Source: a virus | Direction: 5' to 3' (one strand) | IMG/VR virus record: IMGVR_UViG_3300003629_000021 | Span: 1-20,647 of that record | DNA: 20,647 bases | Part shown: positions 1,390 to 18,770 of the stretch, piece by piece | How the letters are laid out: every line of letters starts with the position of its first letter | Numbering within the stretch: position 1 is the first letter of the stretch | Program-made: the position numbers and the translations under genes | Notes under the pieces: model-generated | Database searches by the model: none | What the model was told of the DNA's origin: nothing | What the model saw: the letters and a program-made list of their open reading frames with translations, nothing else

Positions 1390-2118
1390 ATGAGTGATGT
1401 TTGTAGTGAGTGTGGAAAAGAGTTCCAACGGATTGGTCAACATTGGGGACACAATCCGTCACATCAACCAGAAATTTCTGAATTTCTTTATGAAGTCTTA
1501 ACCGGGGTGGTTATGGGCGATGGGTCTGTAAAGAGAGATAGCAATAGGAATCCATATATTCGAGTGCGTTCAATTACTAAAGAGTATCTTGAATATTTGG
1601 ATGACTTATTTGGAATGATGAGTCTTGGCGTCAAACTGCGATATACAGCGGAAGAAAAGGCACGAGAAAATAGAGATAGAAATTTCTCACCTGATGCCGA
1701 TGCGTCTAACTATTCAGACCAATATATATGGAGGACACGACGTTCAGAGAAATTTAGACAATATGAAAATTGGTATACAGAAGGAAAGAAAGTATATCCA
1801 GAAATAGAATTAACTCCTACAATATTAAGACATTGGTACGTTTGTGATGGGCACTACCATAACTCTCGTTCGGATAACTATATTAGCATTTCCTGCTCCA
1901 ACGAACAAAATAATAAAGATAAAGTAGAGAAAATGTTTTCGAATATTGGATATGATGTAGAATATTGGAATGAATCCACACGGAATAATGGAAAATACTC
2001 AGGGACAACAAATTCAGCAATATGTTTCAATGTTCAAACAAGTAAGAATATATTCAACTATATAGGAGAACCGATACCCGGATTTGAATATAAGTGGCCT
2101 GACAAAAAAGTTAAGTAG
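1390..2118 (+). CDS. LAGLIDADG homing endonuclease (HEG1)
   Basis: This is a free-standing homing endonuclease of 242 aa, the usual size for a two-motif LAGLIDADG enzyme. The first motif is LTGVVMGDG (residues 37-45, acidic Asp44) and the second is LRHWYVCDG (146-154, Asp153). An N-terminal zinc-knuckle-like module has Cys5, Cys8 and His residues ending in NPSH. It probably cuts one allele of a neighbouring gene and spreads by repair. The gene is clearly richer in A+T than its neighbours, a sign of transfer. It has its own strong promoter, giving a leaderless mRNA starting at this ATG. The stop TAG lies inside the next gene's TATA box (GTTAAGTAG). The sequence resembles HEG2 (6481) and HEG3 (15997), including the WYxxGKKxxP stretch, and it shares the ending FEYKWP with HEG3. 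Confidence 0.88.
   Translation: MSDVCSECGKEFQRIGQHWGHNPSHQPEISEFLYEVLTGVVMGDGSVKRDSNRNPYIRVRSITKEYLEYLDDLFGMMSLGVKLRYTAEEKARENRDRNFSPDADASNYSDQYIWRTRRSEKFRQYENWYTEGKKVYPEIELTPTILRHWYVCDGHYHNSRSDNYISISCSNEQNNKDKVEKMFSNIGYDVEYWNESTRNNGKYSGTTNSAICFNVQTSKNIFNYIGEPIPGFEYKWPDKKVK
2104..2117 (+). promoter_or_regulatory. Promoter at the 3' end of HEG1
   Basis: AAAAAAGTTAAGTA lies 32 nt (from TTAAGTA) before the ATG at 2143. It overlaps the last codons and stop of HEG1. The bases after it (GTAAGG) resemble those after the HEG1 promoter (GTTAGG), so HEG1 is flanked by similar promoter cores. Confidence 0.55.
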
Positions 2119-10176: not shown

Positions 10177-10338
10177 ATGGCACGAGAGAATGCAGTTAAA
10201 CTTTCAGATAGAGAGAAGGCGTTGCTTGAAGAAGTTCGGGAAACAGAGTTTGGAACAGATTCGGTTCCTCTTGGTGAGGCTCTCGAAGTAGCGTGTGAGA
10301 ATTATCTTGGTCCAATGCGGTTGGAAAATGTCGAGTGA
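10177..10338 (+). CDS. Small RHH-like protein, 53 aa
   Basis: The product starts MARENAVKLSDREKALLEEV. A short strand followed by a helix of this kind suggests a ribbon-helix-helix-like DNA-binding protein. Similar short LSDxE-type proteins are common in haloarchaea, but I recall this rather than having verified it. The end overlaps the start of the HNH endonuclease gene by 11 bases, so it may regulate or simply precede that gene. It could also be the truncated front of a longer gene displaced by the HNH insertion. Confidence 0.65.
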   Translation: MARENAVKLSDREKALLEEVRETEFGTDSVPLGEALEVACENYLGPMRLENVE

Positions 10339-11014
10339 ATGCCCGACTTGTGGCAATAAATTTAAATCTGAACGTGGTGTAAAATTACATCACAAAAGAA
10401 GTCACAGAACGAGTCTTACAGAAGTAGAAATAATTTGCTATATATGCGGGGAAGAATTTACACGACAACAGAGTAATGTAAATACGGATAGACCTTGCTG
10501 TAGTGATAGATGTATGTATAAAAAGTTATCAGAAGATAGAGACAATAAGGTAACTATCACCTGTGATTGTTGTGGTTCTAAATTTAAAAGACAAACTTCT
10601 AAGGTGAAAGAAACGAATTACTGTAGCCACAATTGTTCAAAGCACGGGCGTTCAAAGAAGATTAAGGTTGAATGCGTAGAATGTGGAGATACATTCAAAC
10701 GCTCGCCATCTGAAATAAATAACAATAATTTTTGTTCTGAGCATTGCTATGGAAAATATCAGCGCCTTGATGAACCCCGTAAAAGAAGGTTAGGTGATTG
10801 GAGTAAGAAACGTCGTATGGCTCTGGATAGAGCAAGTTATACTTGTGAGCATCCAAAATGTGATAAAAATAAGTGTGCTAATGGAGATAGTTTACACGTT
10901 CATCATATAGTACCAAACAGATTTACAGATTTAGAAACTCATAATATGGATAATCTTCTTGTTCTATGCAGAGAACATCATAATGAATTAGAACCGGAAT
11001 ACTTATTACCTTAA
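10328..11014 (+). CDS. HNH homing endonuclease with four zinc modules
   Basis: I chose the ATG at 10328 (228 aa), which starts directly with the zinc module; upstream in-frame codons lie inside the previous gene. Domains in order are a C2H2-like finger (Cys5, Cys8, His22, His26) and three treble-clef repeats with CxxC...C-x3/4-C pairs near 37-62, 79-103 and 116-140. The HNH nuclease core follows at the C-terminus: Cys173, HVHHIVP (His192, His193), Asn209, LCREHH (214-218). The zinc repeats probably read the target DNA and HNH cuts it. The gene is strikingly AT-rich, a sign of mobility. It lies just upstream of the DNA ligase gene. Confidence 0.87.
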   Translation: MSSECPTCGNKFKSERGVKLHHKRSHRTSLTEVEIICYICGEEFTRQQSNVNTDRPCCSDRCMYKKLSEDRDNKVTITCDCCGSKFKRQTSKVKETNYCSHNCSKHGRSKKIKVECVECGDTFKRSPSEINNNNFCSEHCYGKYQRLDEPRKRRLGDWSKKRRMALDRASYTCEHPKCDKNKCANGDSLHVHHIVPNRFTDLETHNMDNLLVLCREHHNELEPEYLLP

Positions 11015-11031
11015 CAACCGTATCAATAGAT

Positions 11032-12495
11032 ATGACTGAAGTAACACAGCAAGACCTAAGAGATGCGCTGAATTATATCAAAAGCGAGTCTGGCTCTGGT
11101 AGCAAGGCCCGCAAGCAGGAGCGATTCGTGGAAGTTTACACGGAGAACGTCGGCCACATCGTTACGGGAGAACGGTACGACGATGCCGGGATTGGCAAGA
11201 AGACTGCCGAGAGCGCCGTGGAGGAACTCTACGGAGAGCAGGATGCGCCAACTGTCAGCGAGAGCCTTCACGGAAAGAATATGGGCTACGTGGACGACCT
11301 TGAGACACTCGTCTCGGACTTGGACGAACTTGCAGAACTCTCGGGTAATGAGCAGAAGCAGATGCTCGTGAATATGCTCGATGCCCACATTGAACCGAGT
11401 CTTGTCACATTGGCTCTCTTGGATGATGAATCTATTGGTCTTGGAACTTCGCAGATGCGTGAGGCATTCTTCGATGGGACGCGAGATGAACGGAAGCACG
11501 CCGAAGCCTTCGTAGAAACTACGACGGAGTTTATTTCACTCGCTCAGGATGATGCTCTCCCTAACCGGCCTATCGTGGGGAAGCCGTTTGACCCTATGTT
11601 AGCGAAGCCGGAATCTAACCTACCAGAAGATGTAAGCGACCTCTGGTTCCAGCCTAAACTCGATGGATATAGGATTCTCGTTCACGTCAAACAGGAAGAA
11701 CTTGGACCAAAAGCATACGCTTTTACCCGACGCCTCAACGATGTGACCGCAAGCCTTCCAGAACTCAATGAGATTGACTGGCCGGAGCGGGGTGAATATA
11801 TCCTCGATGGTGAGGTTATTGCAGAAGATGAAACATATAAATCTACCAGTTCCAGAGTTGGACGGAAGGCGGAGAACGTCGAGCGTGAGGTGGAGATGGA
11901 GTTCGGCTTCTTCGATATAATCATCAACGATGACGAATATGTGGCAGACCTGCCATACTCCGAGCGCCACGAGTTAATCCACGAAGCGGCTGGTGATACA
12001 AAGGGTGTCGGGGCTTCCACTCACTTTGCTGGTGACACGCACGCTTACGTCCTCGCCTCATATGACAATATGAATAAAGTCGAGGCTCGGGTGATTGGGT
12101 CGAACTACGAAGGTCTTATCTGGAAGGACCCCGAAGCGTCATATCAGTTTGGCAAGCGTAGCAAGGCTTGGATTAAGGAGAAGAACACAGCCGAAACAGT
12201 TGATGTGGTTGCTGTCGGGTTCGAGGAAGCCACAGGTGAGAAGTCAGGTATGCTCGGTGCAATAGTTCTCGAATCTGCTGATGGTACAGAAGTTGGTCGC
12301 ACCGGCTCTGGATTCACCGACGCACAGCGCCGAAATATTTGGGATAACCAGCAGAACTATATGGGTAGTACGCTTGAGGTAGAGGCAGAAGCCTTTGACG
12401 ATGGGCTACGGTTCCCTATCTTCCAGAGATGGCGAGACGACGACGGAGAGCCTGATTCAATCGACAGAATCAAGGAAGTCCTGCCAGCACCGTAA
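11032..12495 (+). CDS. ATP-dependent DNA ligase
   Basis: This 487-aa ligase seals nicks in double-stranded DNA using ATP. It has an N-terminal helical DNA-binding domain (about 1-180). The adenylation domain has motif I QPKLDGYR (Lys209), motif III ILDGEVI (Glu261), IIIa FGFFDII (291-297), motif IV YEGLIWKD (359-366) and motif V WIKEKN (380-385). The C-terminal OB-fold includes RTGSGFTDAQRR (423-434). The length fits archaeal and phage enzymes, and no BRCT domain is seen. An HNH endonuclease gene flanks it on each side. A weak TATA-like CTTATTA in the last codons of the upstream HNH gene lies 29 nt before this ATG. Confidence 0.93.
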   Translation: MTEVTQQDLRDALNYIKSESGSGSKARKQERFVEVYTENVGHIVTGERYDDAGIGKKTAESAVEELYGEQDAPTVSESLHGKNMGYVDDLETLVSDLDELAELSGNEQKQMLVNMLDAHIEPSLVTLALLDDESIGLGTSQMREAFFDGTRDERKHAEAFVETTTEFISLAQDDALPNRPIVGKPFDPMLAKPESNLPEDVSDLWFQPKLDGYRILVHVKQEELGPKAYAFTRRLNDVTASLPELNEIDWPERGEYILDGEVIAEDETYKSTSSRVGRKAENVEREVEMEFGFFDIIINDDEYVADLPYSERHELIHEAAGDTKGVGASTHFAGDTHAYVLASYDNMNKVEARVIGSNYEGLIWKDPEASYQFGKRSKAWIKEKNTAETVDVVAVGFEEATGEKSGMLGAIVLESADGTEVGRTGSGFTDAQRRNIWDNQQNYMGSTLEVEAEAFDDGLRFPIFQRWRDDDGEPDSIDRIKEVLPAP

Positions 12496-12496
12496 A

Positions 12497-12512
12497 CCGA
12501 AAGGTTTATAAG
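12497..12512 (+). promoter_or_regulatory. Promoter of the second HNH gene
   Basis: CCGAAAGGTTTATAAG starts just after the ligase stop. It lies about 42 nt before the ATG at 12549, so a leader of roughly 10-15 nt is expected; AAGGTAG at 12537 may act as a weak ribosome site. Confidence 0.68.
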
Positions 12513-12548
12513 TCTGGATACCCTATTGCACAATGTAAGGTAGAATTT

Positions 12549-13151
12549 ATGCCGCTAACTGTATCTTGTGATTTTTGCGGGAGTGACGTTGAGAAATATC
12601 CATACGAACTTGAAGGGAAGAATAACTCATTTTGCGATACAGAGTGCCATAGGCAGTTCCAGATAGAGCAACCTCCTGAAGAACACAACAGTTATAACGG
12701 TGGAAAGATTAGTATCCCGTGTGACTGGTGTGGAGAAGATAATGAATACTGGCCGAAGCGTTTAGGTCAGAAGCATTTCTTCTGCGATATGAAGTGTCTC
12801 GGTCGTTTCAGGGAGCAGTCTATGGTCGGTGAGAATAACCCCAACTATAAGGGCGGTGATTGGGAGCATAATTATCGTGGACCAAACTGGAAGCCTGCCC
12901 GAAACGAAGTACGGCGGCTCGATGGACATACGTGCCAAAACTGCGGCGCAACAGCAGAGGAACTTGGACAAATTCCAGATTGTCACCACATAACTCCAGA
13001 ACACACGTTCGAGAATAGGAATGATGCACATTTCAAGGAGAATCTGGTTCTCCTTTGTCGTGATTGTCATAATGACTTCGACCATATGGAGCCAGCGGCG
13101 CAAGTTGCAGTCCTCGATGTAGAACGAATCGAAACTGTTAAGGTAGTGTAG
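12549..13151 (+). CDS. HNH homing endonuclease with two treble clefs and NUMOD3-like motif
   Basis: The product has 200 aa. Two treble-clef zinc modules come first (Cys7, 10, 29, 33 and Cys58, 61, 79, 83). Next is a NUMOD3-like DNA-binding repeat (GENNPNYKGG, 94-103; weaker HNSYNGGK at 46-53). The C-terminal HNH core has C129xxC132, CHHITPEH (His146, His147), Asn165 and CRDCHN (170-175). It differs enough from the HNH protein at 10328 to be a separate lineage. Composition is intermediate, less AT-rich than the other endonucleases, so it may be an older resident. Its terminal codons and stop contain GTTAAGGTAG, a promoter-like box for 13171. Confidence 0.86.
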   Translation: MPLTVSCDFCGSDVEKYPYELEGKNNSFCDTECHRQFQIEQPPEEHNSYNGGKISIPCDWCGEDNEYWPKRLGQKHFFCDMKCLGRFREQSMVGENNPNYKGGDWEHNYRGPNWKPARNEVRRLDGHTCQNCGATAEELGQIPDCHHITPEHTFENRNDAHFKENLVLLCRDCHNDFDHMEPAAQVAVLDVERIETVKVV

Positions 13152-15214: not shown

Positions 15215-15670
15215 ATGTCACGACGCCCCTACATAGAACAACTCAAAATTGCAGATGAATACCGCACAGGTCGCTCAATGAGCAGTCGCCCGAAGGGATA
15301 CATCTCAGGCGCATTGAGTAAGGAAGTCGTCGGAATGGACGGACGGCTCGATTACTTCCGAGCGGAGTGCCGGGAGTGCGGTCAGAAGCATATTACGCGA
15401 CGTGGTGAGAAGTCTTCACGTTATTACGCCTGCCGAGAATGCGGGACGTGGCATCACATCAACAAAGGCTTCTTCAACCACGACAGATTCGAGACGAAAC
15501 CTCTCACAAACGAAGAATTTAGCGAGCAACTGTACCGCATCCGACTCGCATACAGCAAGTCCTCCTTTGACGAGGATGGCTCGTGGTTTTACGGAAGCAA
15601 AGAGTATCTCCGTGAGAAGGCAAGCGGAGACTTTTGGGAGACGGTCAAACCCATCGAGGAAGTTCAATGA
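15215..15670 (+). CDS. Zinc-ribbon protein, 151 aa
   Basis: An ACTTAAATATATA box at 15181 lies about 32 nt before the ATG, so the mRNA is nearly leaderless. A central zinc ribbon is formed by CRECGQKH and YACRECGTWHH (about residues 51-80). The N-terminus is basic and the C-terminal part is aromatic and charged (DGSWFYGSKEYLREKASGDFWE). The ribbon suggests nucleic-acid or protein binding, but no specific family is recognised. It ends in an ATGA overlap with the next gene. Confidence 0.75.
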   Translation: MSRRPYIEQLKIADEYRTGRSMSSRPKGYISGALSKEVVGMDGRLDYFRAECRECGQKHITRRGEKSSRYYACRECGTWHHINKGFFNHDRFETKPLTNEEFSEQLYRIRLAYSKSSFDEDGSWFYGSKEYLREKASGDFWETVKPIEEVQ

Positions 15671-15828
15671 AGGAGCCTACTGGCATCCTCTATCTCATTG
15701 CGATAGTGCTGATGCTTGGCTCGTGGCTCCCGTTTATTCCACTCACGGCGCTCTGGATAGGGTGGCTGTTCTTCGTGGCAGGGTTCGTCTCGGACATATA
15801 CCACAACTATTATAAGGATGGCGAGTGA
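15667..15828 (+). CDS. Two-helix membrane protein, 53 aa
   Basis: The ATGA overlap with the previous stop sets the start at 15667. Two hydrophobic helices are seen: about 6-22 (GILYLIAIVLMLGSWLP) and 24-41 (IPLTALWIGWLFFVAGF). A short polar tail (YHNYYKDGE) follows. The codons for NYYK hold a TTATAA box 28 nt before the ATG at 15838. Function unknown. Confidence 0.72.
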   Translation: MKEPTGILYLIAIVLMLGSWLPFIPLTALWIGWLFFVAGFVSDIYHNYYKDGE

Positions 15829-15837
15829 AGTAAGAGT

Positions 15838-15972
15838 ATGTCACGAAGCAATTTCAGGCAGATTTGTGTGAGTCGGGATGATGGCGAGTGCCTCGTCCCA
15901 ACCTGCGATAATCCTGTCACGGCAGACCCCGATGGGGCAGGTGAAGTTCACCACATTGACCGAAAGGTTTAA
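15838..15972 (+). pseudogene. Orphan 5' fragment of the HNH-RNA ligase
   Basis: This 44-aa frame starts MSRSNFRQICVSRDDGECLV, continues through VPTC and HHIDRK, and stops in the HEG3 promoter. It aligns with the start of the full ligase at 16788 (MRRSKFRETVFERDNHNCIV, VPAC, HHIIERK), including both zinc cysteines and the HH of the HNH motif. The fragment breaks off just after that motif, where GACCGAAAGG is both coding sequence and promoter. It keeps its own TATAA box (15810) at leaderless spacing, so a short peptide may still be made. The two copies differ at many positions, so this is not a simple recent duplication. It is most likely the original ligase start, cut off when HEG3 arrived with a divergent ligase. 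Confidence 0.75.
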
Positions 15973-15975
15973 GTA
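15960..15975 (+). promoter_or_regulatory. Strong promoter of HEG3 at the insertion junction
   Basis: CCGAAAGGTTTAAGTA, identical to the promoters at 1352 and 10131. TTAAGTA is 28 nt before the ATG at 15997. Its first half also codes for the last residues of the HNH fragment. Confidence 0.75.
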
Positions 15976-15996
15976 CCATTAGGTGCTACACTATGT

Positions 15997-16767
15997 ATGG
16001 GAAGTATATGCGAAACTTGCGGTGATGAATTTAAGTGTCTATATAAGTCTCACTACTACAAGAAGCCGTCCCACAAACCAAACGAATGGCCATCTTGTCC
16101 AGACTGTGGAGAGAGATATAAAAGATTGGGAGGGCATTGGAAATATAACCCGACACATAGACCAGAGTTGTCTAATACACAACACAAGATTGTTACAGGT
16201 CTGTTAATGGGTGATGGACATATAAAGGAAGATTCATCAACCTCATATTTGCAGGTTAATATGACAAATAGAAGATACTTGGAGATGCTCAATACGCAGT
16301 TTGGGTGTCTATCTACTAATAATATACATCTTGCAGTTAGTGCAAAGAAAGTTGCAGAACAAACAAGAGAATCAGAATTTAGTAATTCTGCAACTGAAGA
16401 CTCGTGTAAAGATGTTTATAATTGGCGAACACGAAATCACCCCATCTTTAATGAGTACCGGCAGTGGTATTCTTCTGGAAAAAAGGTTTTCCCAAGCGAT
16501 ATAGAACTATCACCAACAGTTTTGAAGCATTGGTATTGTTCTGATGGAAATATCAATACAAGTGAGAATAGAGGTACTCTACGAATTGGAGTTCAAAGTC
16601 AAAAGAAGGAGAGGATAGAGGAATTGTTTAGTTCCAGAAACTTACCTGAGCCTTCTTGGGATAGGGGAAGCATTTGGTTTACAGTAGATGATAGTGAAAA
16701 AATGTATAAATATATGGGAGATGCGCCAGACGGATTTGAGTATAAGTGGCCAAAACGTTTAAGGTAG
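15997..16767 (+). CDS. LAGLIDADG homing endonuclease (HEG3)
   Basis: The product has 256 aa. Two zinc-knuckle modules stand in tandem at the N-terminus (Cys5/Cys8 to KPSH, then Cys34/Cys37 to NPTH), whereas HEG1 and HEG2 have one each. The LAGLIDADG motifs are IVTGLLMGDG (65-74, Asp73) and VLKHWYCSDG (175-184, Asp183). It is strongly AT-rich. An overlapping ATG at 15993 is in another frame. It sits between a fragment and a full copy of the HNH-RNA ligase start, so it probably homes into that ligase gene. Its terminal codons (KRLR plus stop) carry GTTTAAGGTAG, a TATA box for the ligase that follows. Confidence 0.88.
   Translation: MGSICETCGDEFKCLYKSHYYKKPSHKPNEWPSCPDCGERYKRLGGHWKYNPTHRPELSNTQHKIVTGLLMGDGHIKEDSSTSYLQVNMTNRRYLEMLNTQFGCLSTNNIHLAVSAKKVAEQTRESEFSNSATEDSCKDVYNWRTRNHPIFNEYRQWYSSGKKVFPSDIELSPTVLKHWYCSDGNINTSENRGTLRIGVQSQKKERIEELFSSRNLPEPSWDRGSIWFTVDDSEKMYKYMGDAPDGFEYKWPKRLR
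16755..16766 (+). promoter_or_regulatory. Promoter ACGTTTAAGGTA at the 3' end of HEG3
   Basis: TTAAGGTA starts 29 nt before the ATG at 16788. It favours that ATG over the one at 16782 and would let the ligase be transcribed even if the original promoter is now separated. Confidence 0.6.
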
Positions 16768-16787
16768 TTGCCGTGTAATAGATGAAT

Positions 16788-17825
16788 ATGAGACGAAGCA
16801 AATTTCGAGAAACAGTATTCGAGCGGGATAACCACAACTGCATAGTCCCAGCGTGTTCTAAGGATGCTGTAGATGCACACCATATAATCGAGCGTAAGTT
16901 ATGGTACGACGGCGGCTACATTACGCCGAATGGAGCGAGCGTCTGCAATCAGCATCACAGGCTCGCAGAGGATAATGTGATTCCTCCGCAAGCGTTCTGG
17001 CGATGGGCGGGTGTGGAGAAGACGCCACTACCAGAAAGCATCAGCCATATGCACAGGAACGACGTGGATAAGTGGGGTGAGCCACTCCCTGCGCCTCCGT
17101 GGAGACAGCACCGCTCTCGTATCAAATATCCAAGTACGCGGCATCTCCCGTGGTCACACGAGCGGGATACCGATGATACTGCACACGAGCAGGTGGATAA
17201 CTTTATCGACTATCCACTCGTTGCAACCGTCAAGATGGACGGAGGCAACGCAATGCTTGTGAAAGATACGGATAATCCCGTTCGAGCGAGGAATGGTCGG
17301 CAGGCCAACAAGGAGCATTTCGATATGGCGAAGCAATGGTATTGGGAGAACAACCTCTACGAGAAGATACCCGAGCATCTGCAAATCTTCGGAGAGTGGC
17401 TATATGCGAAGCACAGCATTCATTACGGATGCAACTGCGAGGAAGAATGTGAAGACGTTGGGCCAGCACTTCGGGATTATTTCCAAGTGTTCGGCGTGTA
17501 CGATACTCGCTATGACCTGTGGCTCGGTTGGCACGAGACGACGGCAATCGCGGAAGAATTGGACCTGACGCTTGCTCCACCAGCCACGCCGCCTGCCTAC
17601 TCGATAGGAGAATTTGACAATTCGTATGAATTTTGGGATTATGCTTATGGATTGTCACAAAACGTCGTGAACCAAGGGCACGAGGGTATCGTCATCCGTT
17701 CAGCATTGCCCTTCCAGTATGGGCAGATTGAAGAACGCCTCGGCAAATACGTCAGGCCGGGTCACGTCAAAGAGGATGAAGAACATTGGAGTCATCGGGA
17801 GTTGGTTCAGAATCGACGGAGTTAA
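16788..17825 (+). CDS. HNH-RNA ligase fusion protein
   Basis: The start at 16788 (345 aa) follows leaderless spacing; an in-frame ATG at 16782 adds two residues. The N-terminal HNH-type zinc fold has C18-x4-C23, HHIIERKLW (His31, His32), Asn48 and C53-x2-HH (56-57). After a linker, an ATP-dependent RNA ligase domain begins with IKYPSTRHLPW. It has motif I VKMDGGNAML (Lys149), FGEWLYAKHSIHYG (Glu203), FQVFGVYD, the EGIVIR motif IV (Glu299) and motif V near LGKYVRPGHVK. I recall phage ligases with a similar front module. The HNH part may bind or process RNA and need not be a DNA nuclease. It is preceded by HEG3 and by a fragment of a related start. Confidence 0.87.
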   Translation: MRRSKFRETVFERDNHNCIVPACSKDAVDAHHIIERKLWYDGGYITPNGASVCNQHHRLAEDNVIPPQAFWRWAGVEKTPLPESISHMHRNDVDKWGEPLPAPPWRQHRSRIKYPSTRHLPWSHERDTDDTAHEQVDNFIDYPLVATVKMDGGNAMLVKDTDNPVRARNGRQANKEHFDMAKQWYWENNLYEKIPEHLQIFGEWLYAKHSIHYGCNCEEECEDVGPALRDYFQVFGVYDTRYDLWLGWHETTAIAEELDLTLAPPATPPAYSIGEFDNSYEFWDYAYGLSQNVVNQGHEGIVIRSALPFQYGQIEERLGKYVRPGHVKEDEEHWSHRELVQNRRS

Positions 17826-17849: not shown

Positions 17850-18770
17850 ATGGAGAACGTATTAGACTTATGTGCTGGCGCTGGTGGCTTGAGCCACGGA
17901 TTCGAGCAGGCAGGCTATCGAGTTCTCGCTGGTGTTGACGTATGGGATGATGCCTTAGAGACGTATCGCCTCAACCATCCGAGTGTCGGTCTTGAGGTAG
18001 ATATGCATTCCACCGAGCCAAGCGAGTTGCCTGTTGCAAAAGAGCAGGTCGATGTAGTTATCGGAGGCCCGCCGTGCAAGGGTTTCAGCCTCGCTGGTGA
18101 GCGGAAGGAAGACGACGAGCGGAATCAGTTGGTTGCACGGTTCCTCGATTACGTCGAGTATTTCGAGCCAGAGACGGTAGTGATGGAGAACGTGGTCGGG
18201 ATTCTCTCAATGGAGTTGTCCGGTTATGATGGAAGCGTGACAGATTATATTCACTCCCGTCTGCGGTCTATGGGTTTCGAGACGGACCACCAAACGCTTG
18301 ACGCAACGGACTACGGCATTGCTCAGACGAGGCGGCGTGTGTTCTTTATCGGAACCCGTGGACGCTTCCCGTCTTATCCACAGCCTACTACTCAGGACGA
18401 GGTTCAGGCTGTGTCGAGCGTTCTTGAGCAGGATTTCTCCGGCTCGCCTAATCATACGTTTACAAATCACCAGCAGTCTACGATTGACAAGATGGCGGCT
18501 ATCGACTACGAGGAATCAGTCTACGACTCCTACAAAGAGGCGTGGCGACGGCTTCATCCAGACAAGCCTGCGCCAACCATTAAGGAGAATCACAACGCAC
18601 CGTTTGTGCATTACTCGGAGGACCGAGTTGGCACGCCGCGAGAATGTGCGGCTATTCAGAGTTTCCCGAATGAATATGAGTTCGTGGGAACAAAGTCGAG
18701 CGTTCTCAAACAGATTGGCAACGCCGTGCCGCCTGCACTTGCAAAAGAGATTGCGAAAGGTTTAAGGTAA
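17850..18770 (+). CDS. C5-cytosine DNA methyltransferase
   Basis: This enzyme transfers a methyl group from S-adenosylmethionine to cytosine C5 in DNA. It has 306 aa from the ATG at 17850, with an alternative ATG at 17841. Motifs in order: I DLCAGAGGLSHGF (6-18), IV GGPPCKGFS with catalytic Cys76, VI ENV (113-115), VIII QTRRRVFFIG (159-168), a short variable target-recognition region (about 185-240), and X QIGNAVPPALA (288-298). All key residues are intact. No partner restriction enzyme is seen, so this is probably a protective orphan methylase. The recognition site cannot be read. Its last codons (AKGLR plus stop) form the promoter CGAAAGGTTTAAGGTA for the next gene. Confidence 0.95.
   Translation: MENVLDLCAGAGGLSHGFEQAGYRVLAGVDVWDDALETYRLNHPSVGLEVDMHSTEPSELPVAKEQVDVVIGGPPCKGFSLAGERKEDDERNQLVARFLDYVEYFEPETVVMENVVGILSMELSGYDGSVTDYIHSRLRSMGFETDHQTLDATDYGIAQTRRRVFFIGTRGRFPSYPQPTTQDEVQAVSSVLEQDFSGSPNHTFTNHQQSTIDKMAAIDYEESVYDSYKEAWRRLHPDKPAPTIKENHNAPFVHYSEDRVGTPRECAAIQSFPNEYEFVGTKSSVLKQIGNAVPPALAKEIAKGLR
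18754..18769 (+). promoter_or_regulatory. Promoter inside the methyltransferase 3' end
   Basis: CGAAAGGTTTAAGGTA. TTAAGGTA starts 28 nt before the ATG at 18790 and the box contains the methyltransferase stop codon. Confidence 0.68.

Follow-up and report, generated by a model that had tools for sequence, protein, structure and literature searches.

A homing endonuclease gene between a stub and a chimeric RNA ligase gene in a haloarchaeal virus: a likely case of 5′-end replacement

The window analyzed here, the whole of a 20,647-base virus record, is mostly syntenic with Halogranum tailed virus 1 (HGTV-1, Halomagnusviridae), with blastn blocks of 73–83% identity, and is therefore a contig of a tailed haloarchaeal virus. 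Within positions 15838–17825, a 44-codon frame (15838–15972) is followed by a nuclease gene, HEG3 (15997–16767), and then by a complete HNH-RNA ligase gene ending at 17825. The features of this locus are listed below.

15215–15670 and about 15668–15828, + strand: two genes upstream of the stub, syntenic with HGTV-1 genes 231 and 232 (tblastn, 84% and 81% amino acid identity)
15810–15817, + strand: box TTATAAGG, probably the native ligase promoter, 28 nt 5′ of the stub ATG and also present before HGTV-1 gene 233 (inferred from sequence comparison)
15838–15957, + strand: stub, the first 40 codons of the virus's original HNH-RNA ligase gene, ending at the HHI codons and sharing the DPDG..GE loop with HGTV-1
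15958–15975, + strand: left junction and putative HEG3 promoter GACCGAAAGGTTTAAGTA, with its box at −28 of HEG3
15997–16767, + strand: HEG3, a 256-residue LAGLIDADG endonuclease with an N-terminal Cys-rich (zinc-ribbon-like) part
16758–16764, + strand: promoter-like box TTTAAGG in the last HEG3 codons, 29–30 nt before ATG 16788 (role inferred)
16788–16886, + strand: replacement ligase start, 33 codons to HHI, foreign and of the short-loop type
16887–17190, + strand: stretch into which the donor tract may extend (codons to about 136), equally distant from HGTV-1 and from a second contig, L002
17191–17825, + strand: native, HGTV-1-like 3′ part of the RNA ligase gene, with the KxDGG motif and the rest of the protein

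HEG3 satisfies the criterion for membership of its family, as it matches Pfam LAGLIDADG_2 (PF03161) with an E-value of 3e-14 and 53.7 bits, against a cut-off of 25; it also matches phrog_11023 (E 2e-56). The best PDB matches of its predicted structure (pLDDT 85) are I-SceI and I-WcaI. Both LAGLIDADG aspartates, D73 and D183, are present and are invariant in 17 sequences, and HEG3 thus meets the fold criterion of a LAGLIDADG fold with two motifs and an acidic residue in each. HEG3 is likely to be a free-standing LAGLIDADG homing endonuclease, although its site-specific cleavage is inferred, without biochemistry. The phrog_11023 nucleases of other haloviruses (HGTV-1 genes 50 and 205, VOLN27B and HVTV-1) belong to the same protein family, at about 30–46% identity, but unlike HEG3 they show no flank-to-flank gene duplication.

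The 44-codon frame upstream of HEG3 matches the front of the RNA ligase profile PHROG 24030 (positions 4–35, E 5e-7) better than it matches any HNH family. The stub is identical to HGTV-1 at 28 of 40 residues and to L002 at 26 of 40, and a long loop, DPDG.GE, is common to all three. In HGTV-1, genes 231 and 232, which directly precede the intact ligase gene 233 in the annotation of that virus, run straight into this single gene, and neither a HEG nor a separate stub is found at the gene 233 locus. L002 likewise carries one uninterrupted HNH-RNA ligase gene and no separate stub. The blastn homology between the window and HGTV-1 stops at 15956 (position 27620 of the HGTV-1 segment L004) and resumes at 16878 (L004:27613), so that both edges fall on the same codons of gene 233, those for the HHI of the first HNH motif. 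Relative to HGTV-1, the insert therefore consists of HEG3 and a second gene start.

The sequence GACCGAAAGGTTTAAGTA, located immediately after the HHI codons of the stub, matches a promoter-like sequence, ACCGAAAGGTTTAAGTA, found 5′ of both HEG1 and the 10177 gene; a close form of ACCGAAAGGTTTAAGTA precedes HNH2. Based on this match, the ligase-derived part of the stub most likely ends at HHI (15957), and the 'DRK' of 'HHIDRK' would be the HEG3 promoter rather than ligase code, which explains why the isoleucine codon is absent from the stub. Since the E-R-K codons of the ligase gene resemble CGAAAG, the left junction possibly arose through microhomology with these codons. On the other side of HEG3, the position of the ligase start can be judged from the spacing of promoter-like boxes in this virus: a TTAAG[TG] box occurs about 28 nt before 14 of 27 candidate starts, as compared to 1.9% of random positions. 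Such a box lies at −29 of ATG 16788, a typical spacing, and this ATG is therefore the likely ligase start, with the promoter in the last HEG3 codons; expression from the box is inferred. Promoter-like boxes inside the last codons of an upstream gene, about 30 nt before the next start, are observed at 2105–2118 (HEG1), 16758–16764 (HEG3) and 18755–18770 (DNA methyltransferase).

The gene downstream of HEG3 is a full-length HNH-RNA ligase by the criterion of an N-terminal HNH module joined to an RNA_ligase domain with a KxDG motif. It matches phrog_24030 over residues 3–347 (E 4e-121) and PF09414 RNA_ligase over residues 146–323 (E 9e-21). Its start, however, is unlike the stub, as it is devoid of the long loop and is identical to HGTV-1 at only 13 of 33 residues and to L002 at only 14 of 33. 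Trees built from the N-terminal module place the stub with HGTV-1 and L002 (UFBoot 99) and the replacement start outside this group. They rest on only about 36 informative residues and are weak by themselves, but they agree with the site patterns and with the loop indel. A tree of the first 137 ligase codons groups HGTV-1 with L002 to the exclusion of the window (UFBoot 98), whereas in a tree of the remaining ligase the window is sister to HGTV-1 (UFBoot 85). A maximum chi-square test on the site patterns of three closely related sequences (the window, HGTV-1 and L002) places a break at ligase codon 137, counted from ATG 16782, at about position 17190 (p=0.0002 by site, p=0.0005 by codon). Comparison thus shows that the ligase gene is chimeric, with a foreign start and a native 3′ part.

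The extent of the foreign tract is less well defined. GC3 shifts at HHI, from 39% before it to 61% in the next 101 codons (p=0.04), and the site patterns shift near 17190, so the end of the donor tract likely lies between 16886 and about 17190. The segment between HHI and about 17190 remains unresolved in a tree of its own. A donor genome carrying HEG3 together with this ligase start was not found in a DNA-level search that comprised single-protein and alignment scans over viral contigs and a single scan covering genome contigs, phages and plasmids; the closest haloarchaeal short-loop homologue is on a Natronococcus plasmid, at 45% overall.

The sequence-only reading of this locus had described an HNH fragment that breaks off, followed by HEG3 and by a complete HNH-RNA ligase with a divergent start, and this description held, coordinates included. 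It had extended the fragment through HHIDRK, which is corrected here to an end at HHI. Two observations had been named as refuting it, and neither was made. Relatives without HEG3 that keep both a short HNH frame and a separate ligase were not seen, as HGTV-1 and L002 each carry a single gene, and the fragment does not fit another HNH family better, its best match being the ligase front. Separate trees of the N-terminal module and of the ligase domain, proposed as a check, proved discordant in the manner described above.

We then considered whether the layout is peculiar to this locus. HEG3 relatives were taken from viral contigs and phage records, giving 32 distinct loci, and at each of them the DNA just upstream of the HEG was compared with the start of the next gene; 992 non-cognate flank pairs served as the null and reached a maximum score of 47. 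A stub, a HEG and a complete gene are arranged in this manner at the 5′ end in four of the 32 loci: L036 (score 115), L056 (108), the window, where the stub is aligned with the downstream ligase start (80), and L054 (59). All four alignments above the null begin at the start of the downstream gene. The genes concerned are different in each case, namely the ligase, a deoxyribosyltransferase-like gene, a terminase and a gene of unknown function, and the HEGs of L036, L056 and L054 are only 35–39% identical to HEG3. No stub was found in the other 28 loci of the HEG3 family, and the same layout was looked for at HEG1 and HEG2 of the window with a negative result. The comparison shows that the arrangement is recurrent in the HEG3 family. 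An assembly error is unlikely, although the reads are not available, because four independent contigs have the same design. One further locus, L055, passed a lenient score threshold only because of acidic low-complexity sequence, with an alignment that did not run from the downstream start, and was rejected.

The L036 gene is nucleoside deoxyribosyltransferase-like (weak Pfam match, E 0.014) and lies upstream of a DNA polymerase gene, and HEG-free relatives are available in L043 and L042. The L036 stub is nearer to L043 (22 of 28 residues) than the new start of L036 is (18 of 28), and identity between the full gene and L043 rises from 65% over codons 1–39 to 89% over codons 40–61 (Fisher p=2e-4). 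The L056 gene is identified as that of the terminase large subunit by its 37.5% identity to the Haloarcula tailed virus 2 protein. Here the empty relative, L064, is too distant to tell which copy is native (15/31 against 14/32 identical). In L054, the gene with the replaced 5′ end has no assigned function. The HEG-free relative of the L036 gene in L043 (2501–2746) is itself without its 3′ half, and the deletion fuses it to the next gene.

Mirror-image cases, affecting 3′ ends, are present in L054, which encodes two HNH_3 nucleases, each located after a complete gene end and before a stub of that end. At L054:136–1969, the C-terminal part of a family B DNA polymerase has an AT-rich replacement 3′ end, followed by the HNH nuclease and a GC-rich native 3′ stub. 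Replacement and stub are 61% identical over 89 residues (tblastx E 2e-35), and the GC content of the replacement end (38.6%) is that of the HEG (38.4%), while the stub (54.8%) resembles the gene body (55.0%). The second HNH nuclease is found at the 3′ end of the gene of unknown function already mentioned for its new 5′ end (88% identity over 25 residues, E 2e-13). This gene (L054:2898–4946) has a stub on either side, a LAGLIDADG HEG having replaced its 5′ end and an HNH HEG its 3′ end. As a background, near-flank similarity was detected in 6 of 121 other ORFs of these loci, comprising the two L054 HNH nucleases, one tandem HEG and three short or weak matches. A match in L029 is part of this background only and is caused by two HEGs in tandem. 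L035 and HEG1 of the window, considered as 3′-type cases, reached p<0.01 only with poor alignments containing stops or large gaps, and were also rejected.

The closest known parallel is provided by the WHO elements of Torulaspora and Lachancea yeasts, which replace the 3′ end of FBA1 in nuclear DNA, and for which cleavage and allele specificity have been shown experimentally (Coughlan et al. 2020, eLife, PMC7282813). After the WHO nuclease has cut its host gene, repair on the donor template brings in both the HEG and the donor's gene end, and the resulting chimera resists that HEG; the old gene end remains as a stub, usable as homology for the next homing, and the tracts measured in yeast span 106–306 bp to one side of the cut (PMC7282813). 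Like HEG3, a WHO element encodes a LAGLIDADG protein with a zinc-finger part beside a chimeric full-length host gene, with the old-end stub on the opposite side, and the two gene halves have discordant trees. Two criteria of this type are met here: a full-length chimeric gene and a native-end stub flank the HEG, albeit in an arrangement mirrored to the 5′ end, and alleles empty of both HEG and stub exist in relatives (HGTV-1 and L002, and in the second case L043 and L042). The tract length that the data permit for HEG3, 0 to about 300 nt, is also similar. The HEG3 locus differs in that the 5′ end is replaced, in an archaeal virus, where a new promoter and start codon are needed, and in that its biochemistry is unproven. 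The polymerase case of L054 is WHO-like in orientation, but again in an archaeal virus. Given that the criterion of FBA1 3′ ends is not met, as the 5′ ends of different genes are involved, we infer that HEG3 works like a WHO element rather than being one.

Other systems share parts of this design. Mobile ORFs of fungal mitochondria have been described with foreign C-termini, in Allomyces atp6 and in Glomus atp6, atp9, cox2 and nad3 (PMC3630166); as at the HEG3 locus, an endonuclease ORF is inserted with a foreign gene end and the native end persists as a stub, but these are 3′ ends in fungal mitochondria. Mitochondrial introns of Tremella fuciformis carry N-terminal duplications (PMC7315562), so that, as with HEG3, a mobile element brings a sequence homologous to part of the host gene, and partial gene replacement can result; they are, however, described as introns, with the duplicated part at the intron 5′ end. 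In phages, the documented outcome of HEG entry into a gene is a split gene, as for mobE in Aeh1 nrdA and mobA in T4 gene 60 (PMC2988022). These are also free-standing HEGs in the coding sequence of an important viral gene, yet there the gene stays split, its pieces reassemble as proteins, and no replacement end is supplied. We found no description of end replacement by HEGs in viruses in the limited literature searched.

Taken together, we propose that HEG3 invasion replaced the 5′ end of the ligase gene it entered, and we assign this 5′-end-replacing homing a probability of about 0.8. The stub, the chimerism, the empty relatives and the recurrence are shown by comparison, whereas the position of the cut, the resistance of the replacement, expression from the box in HEG3 and the function of the stub are inferred, in the absence of cleavage data. 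In this view, HEG3 of a donor virus would cut the recipient HNH-RNA ligase gene at or near the HHIIERK codons; if the end of the stub marks the position of the cut, the break is predicted within or beside CATCACATCATCGAGCGC. Repair would copy the HEG together with the donor's own ligase start, and the right end would rejoin the recipient gene by homologous recombination, near the cut or up to about 300 nt past it, while the left end would stay at the cut and leave a stub made of the 40 codons with which the gene originally began. The outcome would be a stub, HEG3 and a complete chimeric ligase gene driven by the promoter-like box in the last HEG codons. The replacement start may differ enough in its DNA to resist HEG3, and the stub may serve as left-hand homology for the next homing round, as proposed for the yeast WHO elements.

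This proposal supports, with refinements, the sequence-only claim that HEG3 invaded the HNH coding region and brought a new 5′ end and a promoter that keep the ligase intact; cleavage and expression remain inferred. The promoter placed at the 3′ end of the cassette would correspond to the box before ATG 16788. Two points are modified: the foreign tract may reach about 300 nt beyond the junction, and the arrangement, which had been called uncommon, is recurrent in the HEG family and has precedents in yeast and in fungal mitochondria.

A stricter version of the proposal would be that HEG3 and the short replacement start up to HHI, about 930 bp in total, form one compact unit, and that the further divergence of the ligase reflects unrelated older recombination or rate variation. 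The change of GC3 at HHI favors this version, as do the short replaced ends elsewhere (about 40 codons in L036) and the new polymerase end of L054, which has the GC content of its HEG. However, the site-pattern break about 300 nt downstream is the stronger signal (p=0.0005), and the yeast tract lengths would fit a longer co-conversion tract, so we lean slightly against the strict cassette. Alternatively, viruses might have exchanged the HNH domain as a module through ordinary recombination, HEG3 being only a passenger. HNH-RNA ligases are indeed widespread and divergent in phages and plasmids, but the left breakpoint coincides with the HEG promoter, homology resumes at the same codons and the recurrence is linked to HEGs, all of which makes such a swap unlikely.

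Another possibility would be a tandem duplication of the ligase start, followed by an unrelated event in which the HEG was inserted between the copies. Although the HEG is flanked by two related starts, only one gene is present in each of HGTV-1 and L002, and the stub clusters with theirs apart from the new start, so that the copies are not recent duplicates, and the same layout surrounds HEGs of one family in four different genes; we rejected this explanation, as very improbable, on the basis of the trees and the single-copy relatives. Finally, the stub could be a functional small HNH protein or a regulatory leader under selection, given that a native promoter box and an open 44-codon frame are retained. 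This is hardly credible for a frame that ends after the first HNH motif, without the Asn and the last His, and in L036 and L056 the reading frame of the stub is not kept at the junction.

The usual expectation is that a HEG can spare a gene only by residing in an intron, an intein or an intergenic site. Homing with 5′-end replacement, as we propose it for HEG3, would add a fourth route for viral HEGs, namely to cut inside an important gene and to supply a replacement end. The layout recurs at related nucleases of three further viral sequences and so resembles a repeated strategy for entering essential genes without destroying them, and it would account for a possible foreign ancestry of gene ends beside viral HEGs. 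Such loci may represent naturally occurring drives that bring their own rescue copy, acting on 5′ ends, for which a new promoter and start must also be provided. A bolder reading, for and against which we see equal grounds, would be that haloarchaeal viruses host recurrent gene-end-replacing homing elements, LAGLIDADG enzymes swapping the 5′ ends and HNH enzymes the 3′ ends of genes essential to the virus, namely those for terminase, DNA polymerase and RNA ligase, each element with its own recoded rescue end, as carried in synthetic homing drives, and the targets evolving as chimeras. The end-replacement idea lends itself to a direct test, in which purified nuclease is given synthetic alleles with and without the insert.

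HEG1 of the window (1390–2118) is at the position equivalent to HGTV-1 gene 205, yet the two are only 36% identical, which may reflect one site invaded repeatedly or very fast divergence. At 10177–11014, the pair formed by a 53-residue gene (10177) and an HNH gene (10295) best resembles one at a distant place in HGTV-1 (L004:34100–34800), and this hints at a possible joint movement. In the region 11032–13151, the DNA ligase is mostly 69–92% identical to that of HGTV-1 over the first 270 codons, but only 29–64% identical from about codon 271. The divergent part directly precedes an HNH nuclease gene (12549–13151) that is absent from HGTV-1, and homology resumes just past the ligase stop. A 3′-end replacement without a stub is conceivable here.
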